Part shown: piece after piece, positions 53,992-64,000 of the stretch
Layout of the letters: each line of letters starts with the position of its first letter
Numbering within the stretch: position 1 is the first letter of the stretch
Origin: Brevibacillus humidisoli
Lineage (GTDB): Bacteria > Bacillota > Bacilli > Brevibacillales > Brevibacillaceae
Assembly: GCF_020923435.1 (NCBI RefSeq)
Contig: NZ_CP087263.1
Span: 3,615,970 to 3,679,969, forward strand
Reading direction: 5' to 3'
DNA: 64,000 bases
Program-made: the position numbers and the translations under genes
Notes under the pieces: generated by a model
Told to the model about the DNA's origin: nothing
Database searches by the model: none
What the model saw: only the letters and a program-made list of their open reading frames with translations

Positions 53992-55206
53992 CTAGTACTG
54001 GTTTACTGGCAACAAATGACGATACGCCGGCAGACCGTTGATCGTCGGAATGGTTACTTCTCCTTGAATCAATGGAAGCACATAGTCAATAAATGCCTCC
54101 GTCATCGTACAGTTCTGAGCATCATACCAAGTGGTTGGCACTACTTTTTCCCGGCTGGCCACAGCCTCCAAAGGTATAGATCCGTAAACAACATCATACG
54201 CTGTCCCACCGCAGCGTTCAATGGTAACCATGGTGCCGGACAGCCCCTCCTCCGCGTGTTCCACCGCCTGTTTGCCCACCCGGTAGGCTTCTTCGGCGTC
54301 CACTTTCGAACAGAGCGCAATGCTGCTCCGCTGCCAGACGCTTGGCAATACGTAGCGGGCTGTCAGTTTGGTACGCTCCTCAATAACCTGTGTCAGATAG
54401 GAAGATACTCCCCCCAAGCGCGGTCGCCCCAACGGATCAAGCTTTGCATGCTCATCGCCTACCAGTCTGCCCTGTTCATCGCGGATCCCTTCCGATACGA
54501 CGACAAGACAGTAACCGTACTGGCTATGGGTCTCTATCACCTTGGCCAAAAACTGTTCGATGGAAAAAGCGGACTCGGGGATGTAGATGAGCAAGGGGAT
54601 GTCGGAGCTTACCTGTTGGACCAGCGCACAGGCGGCAGCGAGCCAGCCCGTGTTCCGCCCCATAGCTTCTACGATGGTCACACGATTGCTCTTGGCCAGG
54701 CTTTTCACATCCATCTCGATGTCGAGAATACAGGTTGCAAGAAATTTTGCCGCGCTGCCAAAACCCGGCGAATGATCGGTGTTGAGCAGATCGTTGTCAA
54801 TTGACTTCGGCACGCCGATGACAGCCAATGGGTAGCCACGCCGTTTAGCTTCCTGATCGATGAGGCTGGCTGCTTTCATCGAGCCGTTGCCGCCGATGTA
54901 AAAAAAGTAGCGAATCTCCCGGCTGACGATGTAATCAACGATGCGCTCCAGATCGTGTGCGGTCAGCTTGTAACGCCAGGTGCCAAGGGCGGCACCCGGC
55001 GTATTCCTCACCTGCAGCAGTTTGTCGTGGGAAAGCTCGTCGAGATGAATGTATTCGTTGTGGAGCAGTCCGTATATGCCGTTGATTCCCCCGTAGATAC
55101 GCTCAATCTTTTGCGATTGGAGCGCTCTCTCCACGATACCGATCAACGATTGATTGATCACGGCGGTCGGTCCGCCCGATTGGGCAATTAAGCAATTCCC
55201 CTTCAT
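53992..55206 (-). CDS. Phosphofructokinase-family kinase
   Basis: This 404-residue PFK-A superfamily protein begins MKGNCLIAQSGGPTAVINQS. The phosphodonor site mixes types: YIGGNGSMK carries the small residue of ATP enzymes, whereas GVPKSIDNDL has the Lys of PPi-dependent enzymes, and Asn replaces the usual Asp of GGDGS. The catalytic MGRNTGWLAAA is present. ATG 55206 is chosen from spacing to AGGTGAAGG. It could act on fructose 6-phosphate from transketolase flux or on another ketose. It lies between the decarboxylating dehydrogenase and the ALDH. Confidence 0.82.
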   Translation of the reverse strand: MKGNCLIAQSGGPTAVINQSLIGIVERALQSQKIERIYGGINGIYGLLHNEYIHLDELSHDKLLQVRNTPGAALGTWRYKLTAHDLERIVDYIVSREIRYFFYIGGNGSMKAASLIDQEAKRRGYPLAVIGVPKSIDNDLLNTDHSPGFGSAAKFLATCILDIEMDVKSLAKSNRVTIVEAMGRNTGWLAAACALVQQVSSDIPLLIYIPESAFSIEQFLAKVIETHSQYGYCLVVVSEGIRDEQGRLVGDEHAKLDPLGRPRLGGVSSYLTQVIEERTKLTARYVLPSVWQRSSIALCSKVDAEEAYRVGKQAVEHAEEGLSGTMVTIERCGGTAYDVVYGSIPLEAVASREKVVPTTWYDAQNCTMTEAFIDYVLPLIQGEVTIPTINGLPAYRHLLPVNQY

Positions 55207-55221
55207 CGCCTTCACCTGTAG

Positions 55222-56658
55222 CTACTCTTCCAGATTGACCACGACCGTGACCGTCTCCAGCATCTCCTCGATCGCATAAGCGGGGCCCTCTCTGCCAATC
55301 CCGCTTTCTTTTACTCCGCCGTAGGGCATCTGATCCGCACGGAAGCAACACGTGTCGTTTACGATCACCCCGCCAACCTCCAGTTGGTACGGGATTTTAT
55401 AAGACAAGTTTAAGGATTTGGTGTAAATCCCTGCCTGCAGTCCGTATTTCGAATCATTGACGAGTTGGATGGCTTCCTCGATTGTTTGGTACGAGGCCAC
55501 CGTCACGACCGGTGCAAATACCTCTTCGTCCACTACCTTCATCCCTTTGCCTGCATTGACGATCACAGTCGGGTAAAACAGGCTGCCTTCGCGCTTCCCG
55601 CCCGTCACGATCTGCGCTCCGGCCGCAGCCGATTCCTGTACCCAGGATTCAATCCGCTTCGCTTCTTTTTCACTAATCATCGGACCTACAGTTGTTTCCG
55701 GATCAAGCGGATCCCCCACCTTGAGTTGGGCTACATGGGCGAGAAAGGCATCCATAAACTGTGCCTCTACTGCTTGATGGACATAGATGCGCTGAACAGA
55801 GATACAGATTTGCCCCGCGTGGGCAAAGGCCATTTTTGCCAGTTTGGCTGCGGCCTTCTCTACATCGGCATCTTCGTGAACAATAGTCGCCGAGTTTGAT
55901 CCCAGTTCGAGTGTCACCTTGCGCAAGCCAACGGTTTCTTTGATGTGCTTGCCGACCTCCGGTGAGCCGGTAAACGTGTAGTATGCGATGCGCGGATCTT
56001 TTAGCAGCTGCTCGCCAACGGTTGATCCACCGCCTACCACGCAGTGCACGTAGCCTTTGGGCACCCCCGCTTGCTCCAGCAGCCGGCACAGCTTTAGGGC
56101 AACCAAGGCTGTATCGGATGCCGGCTTGATGATGATCGGGTTTCCTGCCGCCAGCGCCGGCGCCACTTTGTGCGTCACCAGATTGAGCGGAAAGTTAAAC
56201 GGAGTGATCGCTGCAACCACGCCAACCGGCTTTTTTACGGTGTAAATAAAGCGTGACTCCAGGCCTGGCGCTGCTTGACTGGGAATCAGCTCACCTTTGA
56301 TTTTCTTCGCTTCCTCAGCCGCCATCAGGAACGTATTGGCGGAACGCCTCACCTCTACACGTGCGTCGGAGATCGGTTTGCCCCCTTCCCTTGCGATGGT
56401 TTCAGCAAAATCGTCTTCGTTTTCTTTTAACAATTGGGATAGTTTGGCCAAAACCGTGTAGCGGTATTCGAGCGGAAACGGGACTTGTTTGAAGGCGTAT
56501 TCCGCCGAGCTGACCGCCTGATCTACTTCTTTAACCCCTGCTTTGCAGACATGGGCAACCACGTCACCCGAGTATTTGTTGTAGATGGTATGTGTCTCGT
56601 CTGTTTCTATCCATTCGCCATCAATGAACAGCTTCTGTTTTTCAATGGACTTCTCCAT
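55222..56658 (-). CDS. Aldehyde dehydrogenase of the TRAP/transketolase cluster
   Basis: This 478-residue ALDH has catalytic Glu in VTLELGSNSATIV, Cys in AHAGQICISVQRIY and TFTGSPEVG. It is a close paralogue of the gab-region ALDH (37396-38823). The group includes lactaldehyde, sulfolactaldehyde and semialdehyde dehydrogenases. Beside a split transketolase and a tartrate-type dehydrogenase, tartrate semialdehyde is an attractive substrate (inference). ATG 56658 follows GGGGAGGAGAAAAA. Confidence 0.88.
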   Translation of the reverse strand: MEKSIEKQKLFIDGEWIETDETHTIYNKYSGDVVAHVCKAGVKEVDQAVSSAEYAFKQVPFPLEYRYTVLAKLSQLLKENEDDFAETIAREGGKPISDARVEVRRSANTFLMAAEEAKKIKGELIPSQAAPGLESRFIYTVKKPVGVVAAITPFNFPLNLVTHKVAPALAAGNPIIIKPASDTALVALKLCRLLEQAGVPKGYVHCVVGGGSTVGEQLLKDPRIAYYTFTGSPEVGKHIKETVGLRKVTLELGSNSATIVHEDADVEKAAAKLAKMAFAHAGQICISVQRIYVHQAVEAQFMDAFLAHVAQLKVGDPLDPETTVGPMISEKEAKRIESWVQESAAAGAQIVTGGKREGSLFYPTVIVNAGKGMKVVDEEVFAPVVTVASYQTIEEAIQLVNDSKYGLQAGIYTKSLNLSYKIPYQLEVGGVIVNDTCCFRADQMPYGGVKESGIGREGPAYAIEEMLETVTVVVNLEE

Positions 56659-56727
56659 TTTTTCTCCTCCCCAAACCATGTATGACTGTTGTCTGGTGTT
56701 AGACCGGCCTTTGGTCAATCCAGACGA

Positions 56728-57690
56728 CTATTTCCCCGCTTTGATCCGGAGTACTTCCTTTGCCCGCTTCACGATGTGTCCAGTCGAGATTTCGTACTTT
56801 TGCAGCAATGCATCGTTAGGCCCTGATTCCGAATTCTTGTCGTTTACGCCGACTCGCAGCATGGGTACCGGGCAGTGTTCTACCAAGACTTCCGCAACTG
56901 CGCTGCCGAGACCACCGTAGATACTGTGCTCCTCGCAAGTTACGAGTGCTCCCGTCTGCTTGGCGGCATCGATAATCGCATCACGGTCAATCGGCTTGAT
57001 CGAAGGCATGTGCAGCACAGCGGCGGAGATCCCTTCTTGTTCCAGCAGATCAGCCGCTTCCCATGCGCGCACTGTCTGCGTACCAGTGCCAATCAGCGTA
57101 ACATCGCTGCCCTGCTTCAATTCAACAGCCTTGCCTAATGTAAATGAATAATCCTGGGGCATCACAACCGGTAGTGGATCGCGTGCCAGCCGGATATATA
57201 CCGGCCCTGTATGCTCGTGGGCAAATCGCATCACATGCTGCACTTCGGACGCATCTGCCGGAGCCAGTACGACCATGTTGGCCAAACTGCGCATGATCGC
57301 GATATCTTCTAACGCTTGATGGGTTTTGCCTGTGCAGCCCGTCAACAGTCCGCTGTAGGCACCGATCAGTTTCACATCTAGTTTGGGCTGGGCCACCGTC
57401 ACCTGAATCTGATCAAGCGAGCGCTTGGCGATAAAAGCAGCGAACGAACAAGCCCAAGGCTGCAGTCCGACCGTAGCCAGCCCGGCGGCTGCGCCGATCA
57501 TGTTTTGCTCAGCGATGCCCATTTGCAAAAACTTGGACGCATTTTTCTCTGCCACCAGGTTCAGTTTCGTCGAGTTGGCCAGATCGCCGTCCAGGGCGTA
57601 TACGCGAGGATCGCTGATCGACAACTGCAGCAGTGTTTCACCAAATACATCCCGCATCGAGACCAAATTGCCGTTCTGTATCGTCTGCAT
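56728..57690 (-). CDS. Transketolase C-terminal subunit
   Basis: This 320-residue half carries the pyrimidine-binding and C-terminal domains. FLQMGIAEQNMIGAAAGLAT holds the Glu that activates thiamine diphosphate, and ALEDIAIMRSLANMVVLAPA follows. It pairs with the N-terminal half encoded 4 bp upstream. Split transketolases occur in dedicated catabolic clusters (apulose-4-phosphate, sulfofructose) as well as in archaea. ATG start; a separate housekeeping transketolase is presumed elsewhere. Confidence 0.92.
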   Translation of the reverse strand: MQTIQNGNLVSMRDVFGETLLQLSISDPRVYALDGDLANSTKLNLVAEKNASKFLQMGIAEQNMIGAAAGLATVGLQPWACSFAAFIAKRSLDQIQVTVAQPKLDVKLIGAYSGLLTGCTGKTHQALEDIAIMRSLANMVVLAPADASEVQHVMRFAHEHTGPVYIRLARDPLPVVMPQDYSFTLGKAVELKQGSDVTLIGTGTQTVRAWEAADLLEQEGISAAVLHMPSIKPIDRDAIIDAAKQTGALVTCEEHSIYGGLGSAVAEVLVEHCPVPMLRVGVNDKNSESGPNDALLQKYEISTGHIVKRAKEVLRIKAGK

Positions 57691-57693
57691 CTC

Positions 57694-58548
57694 TTACACC
57701 TCCACACCCAGTTCTTGCAGTGCGCTGTTCAGCTCATCATCGGTAGGTACCCTTGAATGCCACAGGTAGGCATTTTCCATAAAGCTGACACCCTTCCCCT
57801 TCACCGTGTGAGCGATCAGCACCGTGGGTTTTCCCTTTGTTGCTTTTGCCTGGCTGCAAGCAGTGAGAATCTGTCCAAAGTGATGACCGTCAATCTCCAT
57901 CACATTCCAGCCAAACGCTTCCCATTTCTTTTCCGGAGAGGGTACCGGTACGGCTCGTTCGCGTCCGTCGCTTCCTTCCCAGCCGTACTGCTGCAGCTTG
58001 TTGTAGTCCATGATCACGACCAAGTTGTCCAACCCGTATCGAACGGCAGCGTCGGCTGCTTCCCACACCTGCCCTTCCTGTGACTCCCCGTCGCCAATCA
58101 TGCAATAGGTGGTAAACGTCTTACCCGTCAGTTTAGCCCCCAGCGCCATGCCAACTGCAGTGGAGATCCCCTGACCCAGCGATCCTGTCGACATATCCAA
58201 TCCCGGCAGGATGTTCATGTCCGGATGGGCTTGCAGCCGAGAATCGATTGCATCAAACGTGTAGAGCTCTTCCAACGGATAGTAACCCTTTTGCGCGAGC
58301 ACCGCGTACAAGGCAATAGCCGAATGTCCCTTTGACAGCACGAAACGATCCCGATCTTCCCACTGCGGCTCTTCCGGTCTGACATTCATCACCTCGTAGT
58401 AGAGACTGATCAACAGATCAGTTGCAGACAGCGGCCCGCCGATATGACCTGCTCCGGCATGATGTACCGTTTTGATAATCAACGCTCTCGTTTCCGCTGC
58501 CTTTTGCTGCAAGAATGAAATCTTTTCCTGATCCAGTACGGTTTCCAT
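57694..58548 (-). CDS. Transketolase N-terminal subunit
   Basis: This 284-residue half carries the pyrophosphate-binding domain. The thiamine-diphosphate motif is MIGDGESQEGQVWEAADAA ending in DYNKLQQYG. Substrate-side histidines occur in KTVHHAGAGHIGGPLSATDL and LSKGHSAIALYAVL. ATG 58548 is chosen because AAAGGAGG stands 6 bp before it; ATG 58554 has no spacing. It is the first gene after the double operator at 58631-58707. Confidence 0.93.
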   Translation of the reverse strand: METVLDQEKISFLQQKAAETRALIIKTVHHAGAGHIGGPLSATDLLISLYYEVMNVRPEEPQWEDRDRFVLSKGHSAIALYAVLAQKGYYPLEELYTFDAIDSRLQAHPDMNILPGLDMSTGSLGQGISTAVGMALGAKLTGKTFTTYCMIGDGESQEGQVWEAADAAVRYGLDNLVVIMDYNKLQQYGWEGSDGRERAVPVPSPEKKWEAFGWNVMEIDGHHFGQILTACSQAKATKGKPTVLIAHTVKGKGVSFMENAYLWHSRVPTDDELNSALQELGVEV

Positions 58549-58630
58549 CTGCATCCTCCTTTTCACTTCTCTTCTCTTTCGTGCCCACATCTCACAACGG
58601 CTGTGTGAATGAATCCAGTTGACTGCACAC

Positions 58631-58650
58631 TAGGTTAAGCGCTTAACCTA
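58631..58650. promoter_or_regulatory. LacI-type operator O1 with overlapping promoter
   Basis: TAGGTTAAGCGCTTAACCTA is a perfect 20-bp palindrome. On the minus strand a TATAAT (58659-58654) lies just before it, so the start point would fall inside the operator and a bound repressor would block the tktN promoter. The centre is the AAGC|GCTT of LacI-family sites. Confidence 0.82.
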
Positions 58651-58691
58651 ACAATTATAAAAAACAGCGACTATTCCATATTTTTAATATA

Positions 58692-58707
58692 GGGTAATCG
58701 CTTAACC
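58692..58707. promoter_or_regulatory. LacI-type operator O2 with second promoter
   Basis: GGGTAATCGCTTAACC matches O1 except in one arm, and its centre is 59 bp from that of O1. Another minus-strand TATAAT lies just before it at 58720-58715. So tktN seems to have two promoters, each followed by an operator. The rest of 58708-58864 shows nothing further. Confidence 0.7.
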
Positions 58708-58864
58708 AAACCCTATTATAATATACATGTTTTCAGATGCAAAGACTCTTTCTGCTTTTCCCCGTTCACAATCCGGGAAGTCGGCGGCAGAAGCGCTTTG
58801 CTTTTGCCTGTGCTTGTGCCTCTACCGCCAACTGAATCACCCGGAAAGAAAATGTCCCGAATCA

Positions 58865-60142
58865 CTAGTCCTTTACTAATGACGGTATCCACGTGGATAA
58901 TTCCGGTACAAAAGAAATAATCAACACGTCAACGAAGAGTAGGATAATTAAAGGAACCGCTGCTTTGGCGACACGCCCGATGGACAACTTGGAGAGCTGC
59001 GACACCACAAACAAGTCGATCCCAACCGGTGGAGTCACCAATCCGATAGCCAGGTTGACGACCATGATTGTTCCGAAATGGACTGGGTCAATTCCAAGGT
59101 TGACGGCAGTGCTCAACAACAGCGGAACAAAAATCAGAATGGCCGCTCCCCCGTCCAGAAACATCCCGGCCAATAAAAGCAGGACGTTCATCATGATCAA
59201 GAACACGTATTTATTGGTGACCAATTCCGAGATAAATCCGTACACCATGTCCGGCACACCGGTAATATTGATAAAGAAACCAAACAAACCGGCTGCGCCG
59301 ATGACAATCATGATGACAGAGCTGGCAATTGCCGAGTCCCTCAAGGTCTCGACCAGTTTCTGTACGCTAATCTCCCGGTAGACGAGAAATCCGATCACAA
59401 ACGAGTAAACCACTGCAATAACGGATGCCTCGGTGGGCGTAAATATGCCTGTGTAGATTCCGCCCAGCACGATCACTGGCATCAACAGAGCCAGAATCGC
59501 TTCTTTGAACGCTTTTCCAACATCGCGAATGCTTTGACGCTCCACGCCATGATAGCCGCGTCGCTTGGAGATGATATAGGCGCTAATCAGCAGGGAAACC
59601 GTGATCAGCAATCCCGGCAAGATCCCCGCCAGAAACATATCGCCAATCGACACTTCCGCAGCAACACCATATAAGATCATGGGGATGCTGGGGGGAATAA
59701 TCACGCCTAGCGCACCCGAGATCGCCTGATTCGAGGCCGCATACTCGATGTGGTATCCCCTGGCCACCATCGCCGGTATCAGGATGGAACCAATCGCCGC
59801 TGTCGTCGCTGCTCCTGATCCGGAGATCGCGGCAAAAAACATGGACGTGATAATCGCTACCATGGCCAAACCACCCGTGCGATGTCCCACCAGCGCGCTT
59901 GCAAAGTTAACCAGTCGCTGCGAAAGACCGCCCGCGGTCATCAGGTTGCCAGCGAGAATAAAAAAAGGAATCGCCATCAGCGGAAAGGAATTCATCGCGA
60001 TAAAGATGCGCTGCGGGATAATCTCCAGCGGCAGTGTGTCGTGAAACCACACACCGACGATCGTCGCCAAGCTCAGCGAAGAGGCAATCGGGACGCTTAG
60101 GAAGAGGAGGACAGCCAGCGAGATAAAAAAGAGAGCAAGCAT
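58865..60142 (-). CDS. dctM: TRAP transporter large permease DctM
   Basis: This 425-residue protein with about twelve spans is the ion-coupled transport subunit. Typical stretches are SFPLMAIPFFILAGNLMTAG, AISGSGAATTAAIGSILIPA, ASNQAISGALGVIIPPSIPM and IVVNLAIGLVTPPVGIDLFV. It joins with DctQ (4 bp upstream) and the binding protein DctP. GTG or ATG start at 60142 in the line GCTTGCTCTC. Last gene of the upstream half-operon; operators follow it. Confidence 0.93.
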   Translation of the reverse strand: MLALFFISLAVLLFLSVPIASSLSLATIVGVWFHDTLPLEIIPQRIFIAMNSFPLMAIPFFILAGNLMTAGGLSQRLVNFASALVGHRTGGLAMVAIITSMFFAAISGSGAATTAAIGSILIPAMVARGYHIEYAASNQAISGALGVIIPPSIPMILYGVAAEVSIGDMFLAGILPGLLITVSLLISAYIISKRRGYHGVERQSIRDVGKAFKEAILALLMPVIVLGGIYTGIFTPTEASVIAVVYSFVIGFLVYREISVQKLVETLRDSAIASSVIMIVIGAAGLFGFFINITGVPDMVYGFISELVTNKYVFLIMMNVLLLLAGMFLDGGAAILIFVPLLLSTAVNLGIDPVHFGTIMVVNLAIGLVTPPVGIDLFVVSQLSKLSIGRVAKAAVPLIILLFVDVLIISFVPELSTWIPSLVKD

Positions 60143-60146
60143 GCTT

Positions 60147-60638
60147 TTACTCCTCCGTTCCTATGAACTCTTCCAGGATGCAGGAGAGAGAGTTCAGCAA
60201 GAGTAACAGTCCGCCGATCGGCAGTGACAAATAGATCCAAAACATGGAGAGCCCCGTTCCCGGAGCCTCTTGCATCGCAAAACTTTCTGCCAGTTTCCAG
60301 CCGTAGATCATCATAATCACGTAAAATACAAGGGAAATCAGATGGGTTGACACTTTGATCCACTTTTTTACCCTCGCAGGGGCTACCTCTGGAACGATTT
60401 CAACAGCCAGCAGGCTCCCTTTGCGCAGTGCCAGCGAAGAGCCGATCAAGACCATGAAAATCATTAAAAACCGAGCCAGTTCCTCAGACCAGGCCAGAGA
60501 TGACCCGAAGGCGTAACGGGCCATGACCTGCCAAAAAATCAGAATGGACATGACCGCAATGATCAGCGCCAAGCCCCAACCGAAGATTTTATTTACACGA
60601 TCCACTAGGTGAATATACGACTGTAGGACTCCTCTCAT
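60147..60638 (-). CDS. dctQ: TRAP transporter small permease DctQ
   Basis: This 163-residue protein has four spans (IFGWGLALIIAVMSILIFWQ, LARFLMIFMVLIGSSLAL, THLISLVFYVIMMIYGWKL, WIYLSLPIGGLLLLLNSL). It links DctP and DctM. SSLAWSEELARFLMIF is the usual DctQ signature. ATG follows AGGAGGGTAACG. A strong hairpin separates it from dctP. Confidence 0.92.
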   Translation of the reverse strand: MRGVLQSYIHLVDRVNKIFGWGLALIIAVMSILIFWQVMARYAFGSSLAWSEELARFLMIFMVLIGSSLALRKGSLLAVEIVPEVAPARVKKWIKVSTHLISLVFYVIMMIYGWKLAESFAMQEAPGTGLSMFWIYLSLPIGGLLLLLNSLSCILEEFIGTEE

Positions 60639-60660
60639 CGTTACCCTCCTATCTCGGAAG

Positions 60661-60689
60661 CGGGTGGCAATGAACCATTACCACCCGCT
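60661..60689 (-). other. dctP-dctQ intergenic hairpin
   Basis: GCGGGTGG (60661-60668) pairs with CCACCCGC (60682-60689), extended inside by AATG/CATT. There is no U run, so it probably protects the dctP message, giving more binding protein than permease. Confidence 0.6.
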
Positions 60690-60696
60690 CCGCTAT

Positions 60697-61737
60697 TTAA
60701 TATTTGAAATTCCGAACCTTGTCGATCAGTTCCTGGCCGATTTGCGGTGCCCATTTTTCATAGACGGCGTCTACCTTTGCCTTGAAGGACTCTTTGTCTG
60801 GCTGCGTAATCGTCAAACCCTGCTCTTCCAGGAACGCTTTTGCTTCGTCAATCTTGTCCTGGTTCGCCTGACGTCCCTTTGGTACCGCGTATTCAGCAGC
60901 CTTTAGCACCGCTTCTTGCTGCTCAGGGGTGAGCGACTCAAACAGCGCCTTGCTGATCGCAATCGGAGCTGGTGCATATCGGTCATCCAGCAGAGCTACA
61001 CTGGATTGCACTTCGTATATTTTCGAAGATTGGATTGTCGCTGGAGAATTGGAGTGTCCATCGATTACCCCTTGCTGGAGTGCCGTAAACACTTCCGGCC
61101 AAGCCATCGGTGTCGGGTCTGCTCCATACGCTTTCCAACTGTCAATCTGTACTTCGTTCTCTTGGACGCGGATCTTCATTCCCTTGACATCGTCTACCGT
61201 TTGAATCGGTTTGTTGGAAGTGGTGGCAACAAATCCGTTTTCCACCCATCCCAGAATCTTTACGTTGGCTGCCTGTTCAAACTTTTGGGCCAATTCGTCG
61301 CCAATCTCTCCGTCCAGAACAGCAAATGCATGTTCTCTGCTCTCAAACAAGAATGGCAAATCGAACATGTTAAACTCTTTTACCCAGTTCCCCATCGGAC
61401 CGGCCGAAATAATCCCCATATCGAGGGAATTGAGACCCATCATCTCAAATACTTCTCGTTCTCCGCCAAACGCGTTGTTATAGTAGATTTTTACCGACAT
61501 CTTGCCATCCGTTACACGTTCCAATTCTTCCTTGAACGCCTTGGCGGTGATGTCAAACTTTGCGCCTTCCGGTTCCGGAATGCTCAGGTCTAGAACGAGG
61601 GGAGATTCAGACCCCGTGTTCGTCTCCCCTCCGCTCGCTTCCGACGGAGCGGACGTGCCAGACTGGCCGCACGCCGCGATGGTAAAGGACAAGATAGCTG
61701 CCAACAGAACGGGTAACCACTTTTTATGTTTTTGCAC
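60697..61737 (-). CDS. dctP: TRAP solute-binding lipoprotein DctP
   Basis: This 346-residue binding protein has a lipoprotein signal (PVLLAAILSFTIAAC, lipid Cys at about residue 23) and a Ser/Gly/Thr-rich linker. The DctP fold shows YNNAFGGEREVFEMMGLNSL, GWVENGFVATTSNKPIQT and GMKIRVQENEVQID, with the Arg that normally binds a carboxylate. A monocarboxylic sugar acid is therefore a likely ligand, though polyol binders exist. ATG follows AAAGGGGTATGAATC. First of dctPQM. Confidence 0.92.
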   Translation of the reverse strand: MQKHKKWLPVLLAAILSFTIAACGQSGTSAPSEASGGETNTGSESPLVLDLSIPEPEGAKFDITAKAFKEELERVTDGKMSVKIYYNNAFGGEREVFEMMGLNSLDMGIISAGPMGNWVKEFNMFDLPFLFESREHAFAVLDGEIGDELAQKFEQAANVKILGWVENGFVATTSNKPIQTVDDVKGMKIRVQENEVQIDSWKAYGADPTPMAWPEVFTALQQGVIDGHSNSPATIQSSKIYEVQSSVALLDDRYAPAPIAISKALFESLTPEQQEAVLKAAEYAVPKGRQANQDKIDEAKAFLEEQGLTITQPDKESFKAKVDAVYEKWAPQIGQELIDKVRNFKY

Positions 61738-61773
61738 GATTCATACCCCTTTTCTTTTTTCATTGATGTTTGA

Positions 61774-62880
61774 TTACAAATGTGGATATACGATCACTTT
61801 CATGCTGCCGCTTTTGTTCGTCCTGGCCCGCTCCAGTGCCGCACCCGTCTGTACCAGCGGATACTGATCCGTAAGTAAAACGCTTACATCATTCTCACTG
61901 GATGCCATCAATTCCACCCCTAAGGGATAGGTGTTGGTATAGCGATAGGTGCTGTATAGGTCAATCTCTCTCTGAAGCATCAGCGTGAGATTGACCGGCA
62001 CTCTATCTTCCGCAGGGAAACCGATCAGCACCAGTTTTCCTCCGCGTTTTGCCGCCTCTACTCCACTGTCAATCGCTCTCGCGTTGCCCGACGTATCAAT
62101 TACCATGTCGACACCCAGGTTCTGGGTAAGCCTGCTCACTTCTTCCACCACGTTCTTTTCTCCCGCTTGAATCGTGGCAGTGGCCCCCAGCTTCTCTGCC
62201 AATCCCAGACGAAACGGCTCTACGTCACTGACGATGATCTGGCGGGCGCCATATGCTTTGGCAGCGATAATCGCGGTCAATCCGACAGGGCCCATCCCCA
62301 TGATCAGCACCGATGACCCAGGTTGCAACCCCGCCCGCTTTACGGCATGAATCCCCACCGAGAGAGGTTCAATCAAGGTCGCGCATTCAAATGAGAGGTG
62401 ATCGGGGATCGGAAACAGCAGATCTTCCGGATGACAGATATACTCCGCAAATGCCCCGTCGACCGGCGGTGAGGAGAGAAAGGCCACATGCGGGCACAAG
62501 TTGTACCTTCCCTCTTTACACCATTGGCACTTGCCGCAGGTGATGCCTGGCTCCACCGCCACTCTGTCCCCTAGTTGAAACCTGGTCACCTCACTGCCGA
62601 TTGCGACCACAATACCAGCACATTCGTGTCCCTGAACCAGCGGTTTCTCCACTTTGCGGGCACCAATTCTGCCGTGCTCATAGTAGTGCACATCTGATCC
62701 GCAGACCCCGACGGCCATCACTTTCACCAGTACATCATGCGGTCCAGGGTGAGGGACAAGTCTCTCTTCAATCGTTACCGTCAGAGGTTTCTGCAGGACA
62801 GCCACCTTCATCTTGTGAGGCAAATCCGGCAGCCTTCTAAGCGTATCTTCTTGTATGGCCGACACTGGTTTCTTCACCAC
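61774..62880 (-). CDS. Zinc-dependent MDR dehydrogenase, sorbitol/idonate type
   Basis: This 368-residue medium-chain dehydrogenase has catalytic-zinc residues in GVCGSDVHYYEHG and VQGHECAG, structural-zinc cysteines in CGKCQWCKEGRYNLC, the dinucleotide loop GMGPVGL and VSDVEPFRLGLAEKLGA. It is closest in look to sorbitol/xylitol and L-idonate dehydrogenases. GTG 62880 has only GATAGG before it; ATG 62811 (MKVAVLQKP) is possible. It likely oxidises a polyol or aldonate to a keto sugar. Confidence 0.88.
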   Translation of the reverse strand: MVKKPVSAIQEDTLRRLPDLPHKMKVAVLQKPLTVTIEERLVPHPGPHDVLVKVMAVGVCGSDVHYYEHGRIGARKVEKPLVQGHECAGIVVAIGSEVTRFQLGDRVAVEPGITCGKCQWCKEGRYNLCPHVAFLSSPPVDGAFAEYICHPEDLLFPIPDHLSFECATLIEPLSVGIHAVKRAGLQPGSSVLIMGMGPVGLTAIIAAKAYGARQIIVSDVEPFRLGLAEKLGATATIQAGEKNVVEEVSRLTQNLGVDMVIDTSGNARAIDSGVEAAKRGGKLVLIGFPAEDRVPVNLTLMLQREIDLYSTYRYTNTYPLGVELMASSENDVSVLLTDQYPLVQTGAALERARTNKSGSMKVIVYPHL

Positions 62881-62897
62881 CCTATCAAAATCTCTCT

Positions 62898-63935
62898 CTA
62901 ATCGTAATCGTAGTAGAGCAGCACTTTCCCGCCCTGTTTTTGCTCACAGATCTCAAAGGCTTTTTCCCAAGAGCTTAGCGGCAACGTGTGGGTAATGAGC
63001 GGTTTGAGGTTGAGTTTTCTCTGCTCCCAGATGCTCATCACCTTTTCCCAGGACGACATCGAGTGCGCCAGTGATCCGCAGAGTTCAATCTGCTTGTACA
63101 GAACGAGATCGAAATCAATTGTAATCTCCCGCCCCACAATGCCCACCTGCATATATTTCCCTCTAGGTTTAAGCGCTTTCAAACAACTGGCGATGGAGGC
63201 GCCTGCTCCTGCACATTCTACCGCGGCGTCAACTCCTCGACCGTTTGTTTCCCGCTTCAGCACATCATCCAGGTTCTCTGTCAGCACATCGACAACGACA
63301 TCTGCCCCCATCTGTTCCGCCAATCGCAACCTTCCTTTGTCAGCTGTGGTACCAGCGACAATCACCTTGCAGCCGCGGGCAATCAGCAGTGACAGACAGA
63401 GCAAGCCGATCGGTCCCGGACCGGACAACAGCACCTGATCCCCCACATGAAGCGAGGTCAGCTCCTCGATTGGCTGCACGGCACATGCGAGCGGTTCTGA
63501 CAGTGCAGCTTCTTCCAGCGTGAGGAAATCGGGAATCTTGCGGACCATATCTTCTCTGACCACGGCATACTTGGTAAAGCTTCCGTGTACTCCGTGCCCC
63601 ATGCCCCTTCTGCTGGGACAAAACATGTAGAATCCCTGCCGACAGTAGTCGCATTCCCCGCATGTGACAGCTGTTGAGGGAAGTACCGTTACTCTGTCTC
63701 CCTCTCTCACATGTCGGACGCCTCGGCCAACCTCGGCCACAATTCCGGAAAACTCATGTCCCATGATAACGGGCGGATAGCTTTTAAACGTATCGTGATA
63801 GATGTGTAGATCGGTACCACATATACCGGAAAATTTCACTTCGACTTTAACCTGCCCATCTTCACAAGATGGTTCAGGCAAATCGATGATCTGGACATTC
63901 CCAAAGCCCGGTCTTATTTTTGCAAGTGCTTTCAA
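62898..63935 (-). CDS. Zinc-dependent MDR dehydrogenase
   Basis: This 345-residue paralogue of the next gene has FSGICGTDLHIYHD, VIMGHEFSGIVAEVG, structural-zinc CGECDYCRQGFYMFC and the loop GPGPIGLLCL. Family members include sorbitol, threonine 3- and sugar-acid 5-dehydrogenases. TTG 63935 follows AAGGGGGGACCTGA. It is the first gene of the block, 40 bp downstream of a LacI-type operator. Two such enzymes could interconvert epimeric aldonates through a shared 5-keto acid. Confidence 0.88.
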   Translation of the reverse strand: MKALAKIRPGFGNVQIIDLPEPSCEDGQVKVEVKFSGICGTDLHIYHDTFKSYPPVIMGHEFSGIVAEVGRGVRHVREGDRVTVLPSTAVTCGECDYCRQGFYMFCPSRRGMGHGVHGSFTKYAVVREDMVRKIPDFLTLEEAALSEPLACAVQPIEELTSLHVGDQVLLSGPGPIGLLCLSLLIARGCKVIVAGTTADKGRLRLAEQMGADVVVDVLTENLDDVLKRETNGRGVDAAVECAGAGASIASCLKALKPRGKYMQVGIVGREITIDFDLVLYKQIELCGSLAHSMSSWEKVMSIWEQRKLNLKPLITHTLPLSSWEKAFEICEQKQGGKVLLYYDYD

Positions 63936-63974
63936 TCAGGTCCCCCCTTACCATCGTGAAAAATATCTCGAGAA

Positions 63975-63990
63975 AGGTAAGCGCTTAACT
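63975..63990. promoter_or_regulatory. LacI-type operator O3
   Basis: AGGTAAGCGCTTAACT shares the GGTAAGCGCTTAAC core of O1 and O2. It lies 40 bp before the first dehydrogenase gene, tying both halves of the block to one repressor, whose gene probably lies beyond the window. Confidence 0.72.
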
Positions 63991-64000
63991 CATTTCTTAA

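Follow-up and report, generated by a model that had tools for sequence, protein, structure and literature searches.

What switches the two five-gene half-operons near the right end of this stretch of Brevibacillus humidisoli DNA, and what do their genes do together? The stretch, hereafter the window, comprises 64,000 nucleotides (contig NZ_CP087263.1, positions 3,615,970 to 3,679,969; G000:C1:3615970-3679969 in our numbering of the single-contig 4.9-Mb genome, G000), and both half-operons, termed A and B, are preceded by palindromes of the LacI type. An earlier reading of the letters, the original prediction, held that three copies of one palindrome frame the operons and that a single repressor encoded beyond the window controls all ten genes. 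Judged from sequence, the palindromes are very probably the operators of a local LacI-family repressor of the IolQ type, encoded immediately upstream of half-operon A. The locus holds the following sites, with positions past the window edge in window-equivalent numbering:

58631-58650: O1, a perfect 20-bp LacI-type palindrome, TAGGTTAAGCGCTTAACCTA, centred about 92 nt ahead of the likely start of tktN (58548)
58692-58707: O2, GGGTAATCGCTTAACC, an imperfect copy with 2 mismatches, 59 bp centre to centre from O1
63975-63990: O3, AGGTAAGCGCTTAACT, an imperfect copy with 3 mismatches, before the first dehydrogenase gene
64127-64142 (past the window edge): O4, AGGTAAGCGCTTCACC, its centre 152 bp upstream of the O3 centre

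All three palindromes of the original prediction lie where it had put them, O1 and O2 before tktN, which opens half-operon B, and O3 before the first dehydrogenase gene, which opens half-operon A. As a total, three was too low: there are at least four, O4 and the promoter of O3 having been overlooked. O1 and O2 share the 274-bp gap between the gene for the TRAP large permease and tktN. Within the window, O1-O3 are the sole matches to the pattern GGTTAAGCGCTTAACC at ≤3 mismatches; dinucleotide shuffles of the window gave a mean of 0.19 matches, and 0/100 shuffles reached three. The palindrome is even, with a central CG in 17/17 listed sites (locus plus relatives) and an invariant AA.CG.TT. Sites of the LacI family in the RegPrecise survey lie mostly 30-140 bp upstream of the start (Ravcheev 2014, PMC4052901; this and the other papers cited are quoted from partial texts). 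O1 (about 92 nt from the tktN start codon) and O3 (about 47 nt from that of the first dehydrogenase gene) fall inside this range, and O2 (about 151 nt, tktN) and O4 (about 199 nt, first dehydrogenase) fall outside it. The notion that the palindromes are chance or structural sequence, such as terminator stems, with no regulator behind them, has negligible probability. O1, being a perfect inverted repeat, could form a small hairpin, but it has neither a loop nor a downstream T run, and a terminator scan did not flag the sites; chance is excluded by the shuffles, by Markov expectation and by counts in seven genomes, and is contradicted by the conservation in other genomes described below.

The positions of the sites relative to promoter elements point to the manner of control. 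The elements concerned are:

58715-58743, minus strand: promoter of the tkt half-operon, TTTGCA-17-TATAAT, its -10 ending 7 nt before O2
58654-58659, minus strand: TATAAT near O1, 5 nt upstream of the site; best -35, 2/6
64006-64011 (window-equivalent, outside the window): TATAAT of the O3 promoter, TTGCCT-17-TATAAT, with O3 15 nt downstream

A double promoter had been proposed in front of tktN, and this holds in part: TATAAT does accompany both O1 and O2, but in the locus a -35 joins it only at the O2 and O3 promoters. Across the locus and its relatives, an exact TATAAT occurs ≤30 nt upstream of 10/15 assigned sites, in 9 of these at 2-9 nt, compared with 4.6% of intergenic 30-nt windows, a background that contains the promoters themselves. 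These 15 are the 17 listed sites less the unassigned L058:16256 and L059:1915. On a site that stands just downstream of TATAAT, a bound protein would cover the start region, which is the usual picture of LacI-type repression.

The original prediction placed the repressor gene to the right of position 64000, and a LacI-family gene does lie there, in the right-flank stretch L004, whereas the lack of any neighbouring LacI/GalR-type gene would have refuted the prediction:

64215-65222 (window-equivalent; L004:415-1422), minus strand: LacI-family repressor gene, 335 aa, 279 bp before the first dehydrogenase gene

The product has a LacI helix-turn-helix domain (HTH; PF00356, 77 bits, cut-off 27) and a periplasmic-binding-protein domain (PF13377, 141.5 bits), and scores highest among the 10 LacI-domain matches in G000. 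When a collection of genome contigs was scanned with the protein, just 12 loci of 29-35% identity emerged, which were of no use. A tree was built from 17 LacI proteins, IolQ itself not among them. Here the window-adjacent LacI joins cluster copies of two related genomes, G022 and G034 (support 99/98), and a wider clade (99/99) adds own_L020, the LacI beside the canonical inositol cluster of G000; the likely CcpA, own_L022, whose identification rests on its HTH, falls outside this clade. Its recognition helix, SIATVSK, is identical in five relatives and in the LacI of G483, a genome of another family; own_L020 has SISTVSR and the likely CcpA has SMATVSR. The nearest plasmid-borne named relatives, from Paenibacillus (57.8% identity) and Priestia (51%), adjoin iol operons. 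The Paenibacillus iol locus has a 2-mismatch site between iolG and iolD; the Priestia iol locus has no site with ≤4 mismatches.

The best solved-structure match of the window-adjacent LacI is CcpA, and the sites might be cre, the elements through which CcpA would impose glucose-type repression instead of substrate-specific control. Operators and cre have the core AAGCGCTT in common, the resemblance of IolQ sites to cre has been noted (PMC5504672, PMC13130090), so that an extra CcpA input is possible, and O3 and the two IolD sites of relatives lie 3 mismatches from a cre consensus. Against that same consensus, however, the outer T of cre is found in 0/30 half-sites, and 12/15 sites have 4-6 mismatches on the better strand. 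Moreover, the window-adjacent LacI reaches 222 bits with the CcpA equivalog model, whose cut-off is 442, and own_L022 is a separate gene, placed elsewhere in the tree. The genomic distribution argues in the same direction: of the 13 places in G000 at ≤3 mismatches, O1-O4 are intergenic and lie within 5.6 kb, whereas the other 9/9 are inside reading frames, and a global regulator would not confine its intergenic sites of this quality to one locus. We therefore regard CcpA as a very unlikely master of these sites; as the main explanation it is set aside on the grounds of outer bases, branch and locality. The regulon of the local repressor is instead predicted from these counts to be a single locus. 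A separate Cre-like sequence, TTGCAAGTGCTTTCAA, lies at window positions 63920-63935, over the start codon of the first dehydrogenase gene, with 1 mismatch to a cre consensus; similar matches occur elsewhere, and this one is possibly due to chance.

The genes downstream of the operators, all within the window, are as follows:

62898-63935, minus strand: zinc MDR dehydrogenase 1, first gene of half-operon A
61774-62880, minus strand: zinc MDR dehydrogenase 2, sorbitol/ketose-reductase-like, half-operon A
60697-61737, minus strand: TRAP solute-binding protein DctP, half-operon A
60147-60638, minus strand: TRAP small permease DctQ, named by a weak YiaM match and its position between DctP and DctM
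58865-60142, minus strand: TRAP large permease DctM, last gene of half-operon A
57694-58590 (likely true start 58548), minus strand: transketolase N-terminal subunit (tktN), first gene of half-operon B
56728-57690, minus strand: transketolase C-terminal subunit (tktC), half-operon B
55222-56718, minus strand: aldehyde dehydrogenase (ALDH), half-operon B
53992-55215, minus strand: phosphofructokinase (PFK)-like kinase of the pyrophosphate-dependent (PPi-PFK) type, over the curated cut-off of NF010675
52886-53992, minus strand: tartrate/D-malate dehydrogenase-like protein (TDH), TIGR02089 497 against a cut-off of 470

None of the ten is iolD, iolE or iolB, and G000 carries a separate canonical iol cluster, which together rule out a canonical inositol regulon for the window. 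The solved relatives of DctP are many and diverse, and no substrate can be assigned from them.

Sites, regulator and module recur together in other genomes. When 39 genomes of the order were searched, the PFK-like gene turned up in three besides G000: G022, G034 and G033. In G022 and G034 it is accompanied by the TDH and ALDH genes and by LacI copies that share 69% and 58% identity with the window-adjacent LacI, and in G033 by a 64% LacI. Both tktN and tktC are present in the G022 locus; in G034 a tktN-like frame, recognized by eye, follows IolE on another contig. Motif sites precede TDH, an MFS gene, ALDH, IolD and IolE in G022 (5 gene-associated sites), TDH, a LacI, an MFS gene, ALDH and IolD in G034 (5), and PFK in G033 (1). 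At ≤3 mismatches the 20-kb loci contain 4, 5 and 1 matches, respectively, where a Markov model predicts 0.08 on average. In the more distant G483, counterparts of all ten genes lie together with a 50% LacI within ~12 kb, the ALDH counterpart being just 37.5% identical and possibly not orthologous; PFK is preceded there by a site with 1 mismatch and tktN by one with 2, and both sites lie downstream of a TATAAT. When seven genomes are searched at ≤2 mismatches, 10/13 places fall within these clusters (G483 3/3, G022 3/3, G034 2/3, G000 2/3, G033 0/1), the reversed control giving 12 places. The G022 place at 2302255 is in the extended cluster and not before an assigned gene, and the remaining G034 place is flanked by a Gfo/Idh-type gene and a gene for an ABC binding protein, both named by eye. 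The two genus mates have none of these places and no match to the PFK of the module. Across the phylum, the PFK search found 6 other genomes, all of one genus and at ~50% identity, and the 20-kb loci of three of them contain no transketolase, ALDH or LacI match at E 1e-10. Among 398 genomes of the class, the window ALDH is matched at E 1e-180 in 2, G000 itself and G022, and a TRAP-based search gave 4 matches: G000, G483 with the whole module, and two with TRAP genes beside other genes. The matching pairs of site and regulator in other genomes support the proposal that one repressor would serve both half-operons.

Could the paralogue own_L020 control these operators, alone or jointly, and so couple the pathway to inositol? 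It shares the 99/99 clade, and its recognition helix is close to that of the window-adjacent LacI. Its own neighbourhood, however, has no GGTTAAGCGCTTAACC site with <4 mismatches; an IolQ-like AGGAAAGCGCTTGCT precedes its gene instead, and the cognate LacI adjoins the window sites. We consider control by own_L020 improbable. The second LacI of the clade in G000 lies at L072:16805-17889 (G000:C1 ~1906300-1907400), beside the canonical iol cluster, so that two LacI paralogues with related but different operators reside in one cell. In G022 and G034, three LacI paralogues, 69%, 58% and 52% identical to the window-adjacent LacI, were observed in one inositol cluster (L051:3640-13318; L052:3483-5763; L057:4668-5888).

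Several observations weigh against assigning the sites to the local repressor. O4 retains just 5/10 palindrome pairs, and the spacings of 59 bp (O1-O2) and 152 bp (O3-O4) are not among the intersite peaks of the LacI family at 13, 22 and 32 bp (PMC4052901). The raw count of 13 places at ≤3 mismatches in G000 is at background, the reversed-pattern control giving 23; thus position alone, and not number, distinguishes the sites genome-wide. In G483 one site (L089:13872) is inside the ALDH coding frame, and no ≤4-mismatch site lies just upstream of the ALDH-led operon; the sole ≤2-mismatch match in G033 is on another contig. Finally, two or three paralogous LacI proteins, alike or almost alike in their helix, are encoded in the clusters of relatives, and the assignment of sites to proteins there is not one to one.

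For the local repressor, we infer binding to the sites and repression rather than activation. A dimer would bind each GGTTAAGCGCTTAACC-like site, and at O2 and O3 it would cover the stretch just past the -10 and block RNA polymerase, so that both half-operons, each presumably co-transcribed, would be off without substrate. O1 and O4 would act as second sites that probably reinforce repression, whether through cooperative binding, through looping or as a roadblock. The repressor would be released by a small ligand resembling a sugar acid or inositol, and such release from O1 offers a direct assay for finding the substrate.

The pairing of operators and repressor joins the two half-operons in one regulon and is thus evidence that the ten genes form one pathway, while the occurrence of the same regulator lineage and sites on inositol operons of relatives restricts the candidate substrates to sugar acids and inositol-like compounds. 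Repressors of this known family usually accompany genes for inositol degradation, but here the regulator seems to govern an unusual sugar-acid pathway built on transketolase. Dedicated catabolic transketolases are already known, for example, in sulfoquinovose degradation. The G022 module (L052) is accompanied by IolG, IolD, IolE and IolB, all of which exceed their cut-offs. IolD exceeds its cut-off in G000, G035, G036, G022 and G034, and not in G033; IolC does so in G000, G035 and G036, and no IolC exceeds the cut-off of 300 in G022, G034 or G033 (best 216, 188 and 220). The inositol clusters of G022 (L052) and G034 (L051, L104) carry the transketolase module while IolC stays under cut-off. 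That the module sits among inositol genes in two relatives lacking a recognized IolC hints that inositol or keto-acid degradation may end by a route not yet described.

Tentatively, and with more doubt than confidence, we propose an undescribed module in which the split transketolase would cleave an unphosphorylated 5-keto sugar acid, ALDH and TDH would finish the four-carbon part, the set would replace IolC-IolJ-IolA in G022 and G034, and one LacI lineage would have moved with the module between substrates. The transketolase would pass the two-carbon end to an aldose phosphate, leaving a four-carbon semialdehyde. In the window, ALDH would oxidize this to tartrate, starting from 5-keto-gluconate- or fructuronate-type acids; in the relatives its product would be D-malate, from the inositol intermediate 2-deoxy-5-keto-gluconate. 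The tartrate/D-malate dehydrogenase would complete the route, and the PFK-like kinase would take the resulting sugar phosphates. With stereochemistry worked out by hand, C4-C5 cleavage would turn 2-deoxy-5-keto-gluconate into malic semialdehyde and D-malate, and 5-keto-gluconate into tartaric semialdehyde and L-tartrate. For 5-keto-gluconate, cleavage by transketolase has been proposed in grape (PMC7970118) and reported with an engineered enzyme (PMC12016104). Alternatively, the PFK-like and aldolase genes of the relatives might replace IolC and IolJ directly, which would leave the transketolase and the dehydrogenase unexplained. The open-licence literature, judged largely by titles and search listings, yielded no description of such a pathway, and no paper that joins Brevibacillus with inositol catabolism and transketolase. 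Should the transketolase reading prove true, bacteria would have a catabolic counterpart of the route proposed in grape, by which 5-keto-gluconate becomes tartrate, and inositol breakdown would have a new ending.

The right flank beyond the repressor gene holds further features. An interspersed element of ~220 bp (L004:1525-1790, window-equivalent 65325-65590), which lies ~110 bp ahead of the LacI start codon, resembles a miniature inverted-repeat transposable element, with 24-bp perfect terminal inverted repeats and 13 near-full genome copies including itself (at least 207 bp, 85-100% identity); an Rfam scan of L004:1-10000 found nothing, this element included. Upstream of lacI follows a fructoselysine (frl)-like operon (L004:1939-8929, window-equivalent 65739-72729) with an ABC transporter, a GntR regulator and FrlC-, FrlB- and FrlD-like enzymes, all under their equivalog cut-offs. 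Frames resembling insertion-sequence transposase genes by eye, an IS21-like pair and others, occupy L004:14670-19244.

How does this system compare with those already described? IolQ of Bacillus subtilis, the repressor of iolX, binds AGAAARCGCTTKCK near iolX promoters at two sites, the high-affinity one at +4 to +30 (PMC5504672), and IolQ of Geobacillus kaustophilus is one repressor for two iol operons, with myo-inositol as inducer (PMC13130090). Like IolQ, the window-adjacent protein belongs to the LacI family, has operators with an AA(G/R)CGCTT core, as in AGAAARCGCTTKCK, and has its nearest named plasmid-borne relatives beside iol operons; it groups with the LacI genes of inositol clusters, and its relatives in G022, G034 and Paenibacillus sit with inositol genes and sites. 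Unlike those of IolQ, the operons of the window lack iolDEB, and the half-site is GGTTAAGC and not AGAAAGC, the operator sharing the core AAGCGCTT with AGAAARCGCTTKCK and differing in the outer bases (GGTT versus AGAA). The even palindrome, the central CG and the local sugar regulon recall the LacI regulators of inositol and gluconate/idonate in RegPrecise, whereas a word search of the partial survey text gave no transketolase and no TRAP transporter (PMC4052901). With CcpA and cre the system shares the protein family and a similar core, but it lacks the outer T/A, belongs to a different branch and is local, not global. By these sequence criteria the window-adjacent LacI is best described as a local repressor of the IolQ type whose set of targets is new: operators and repressor fit a known type, and novelty, if any, lies in the pathway that they govern.

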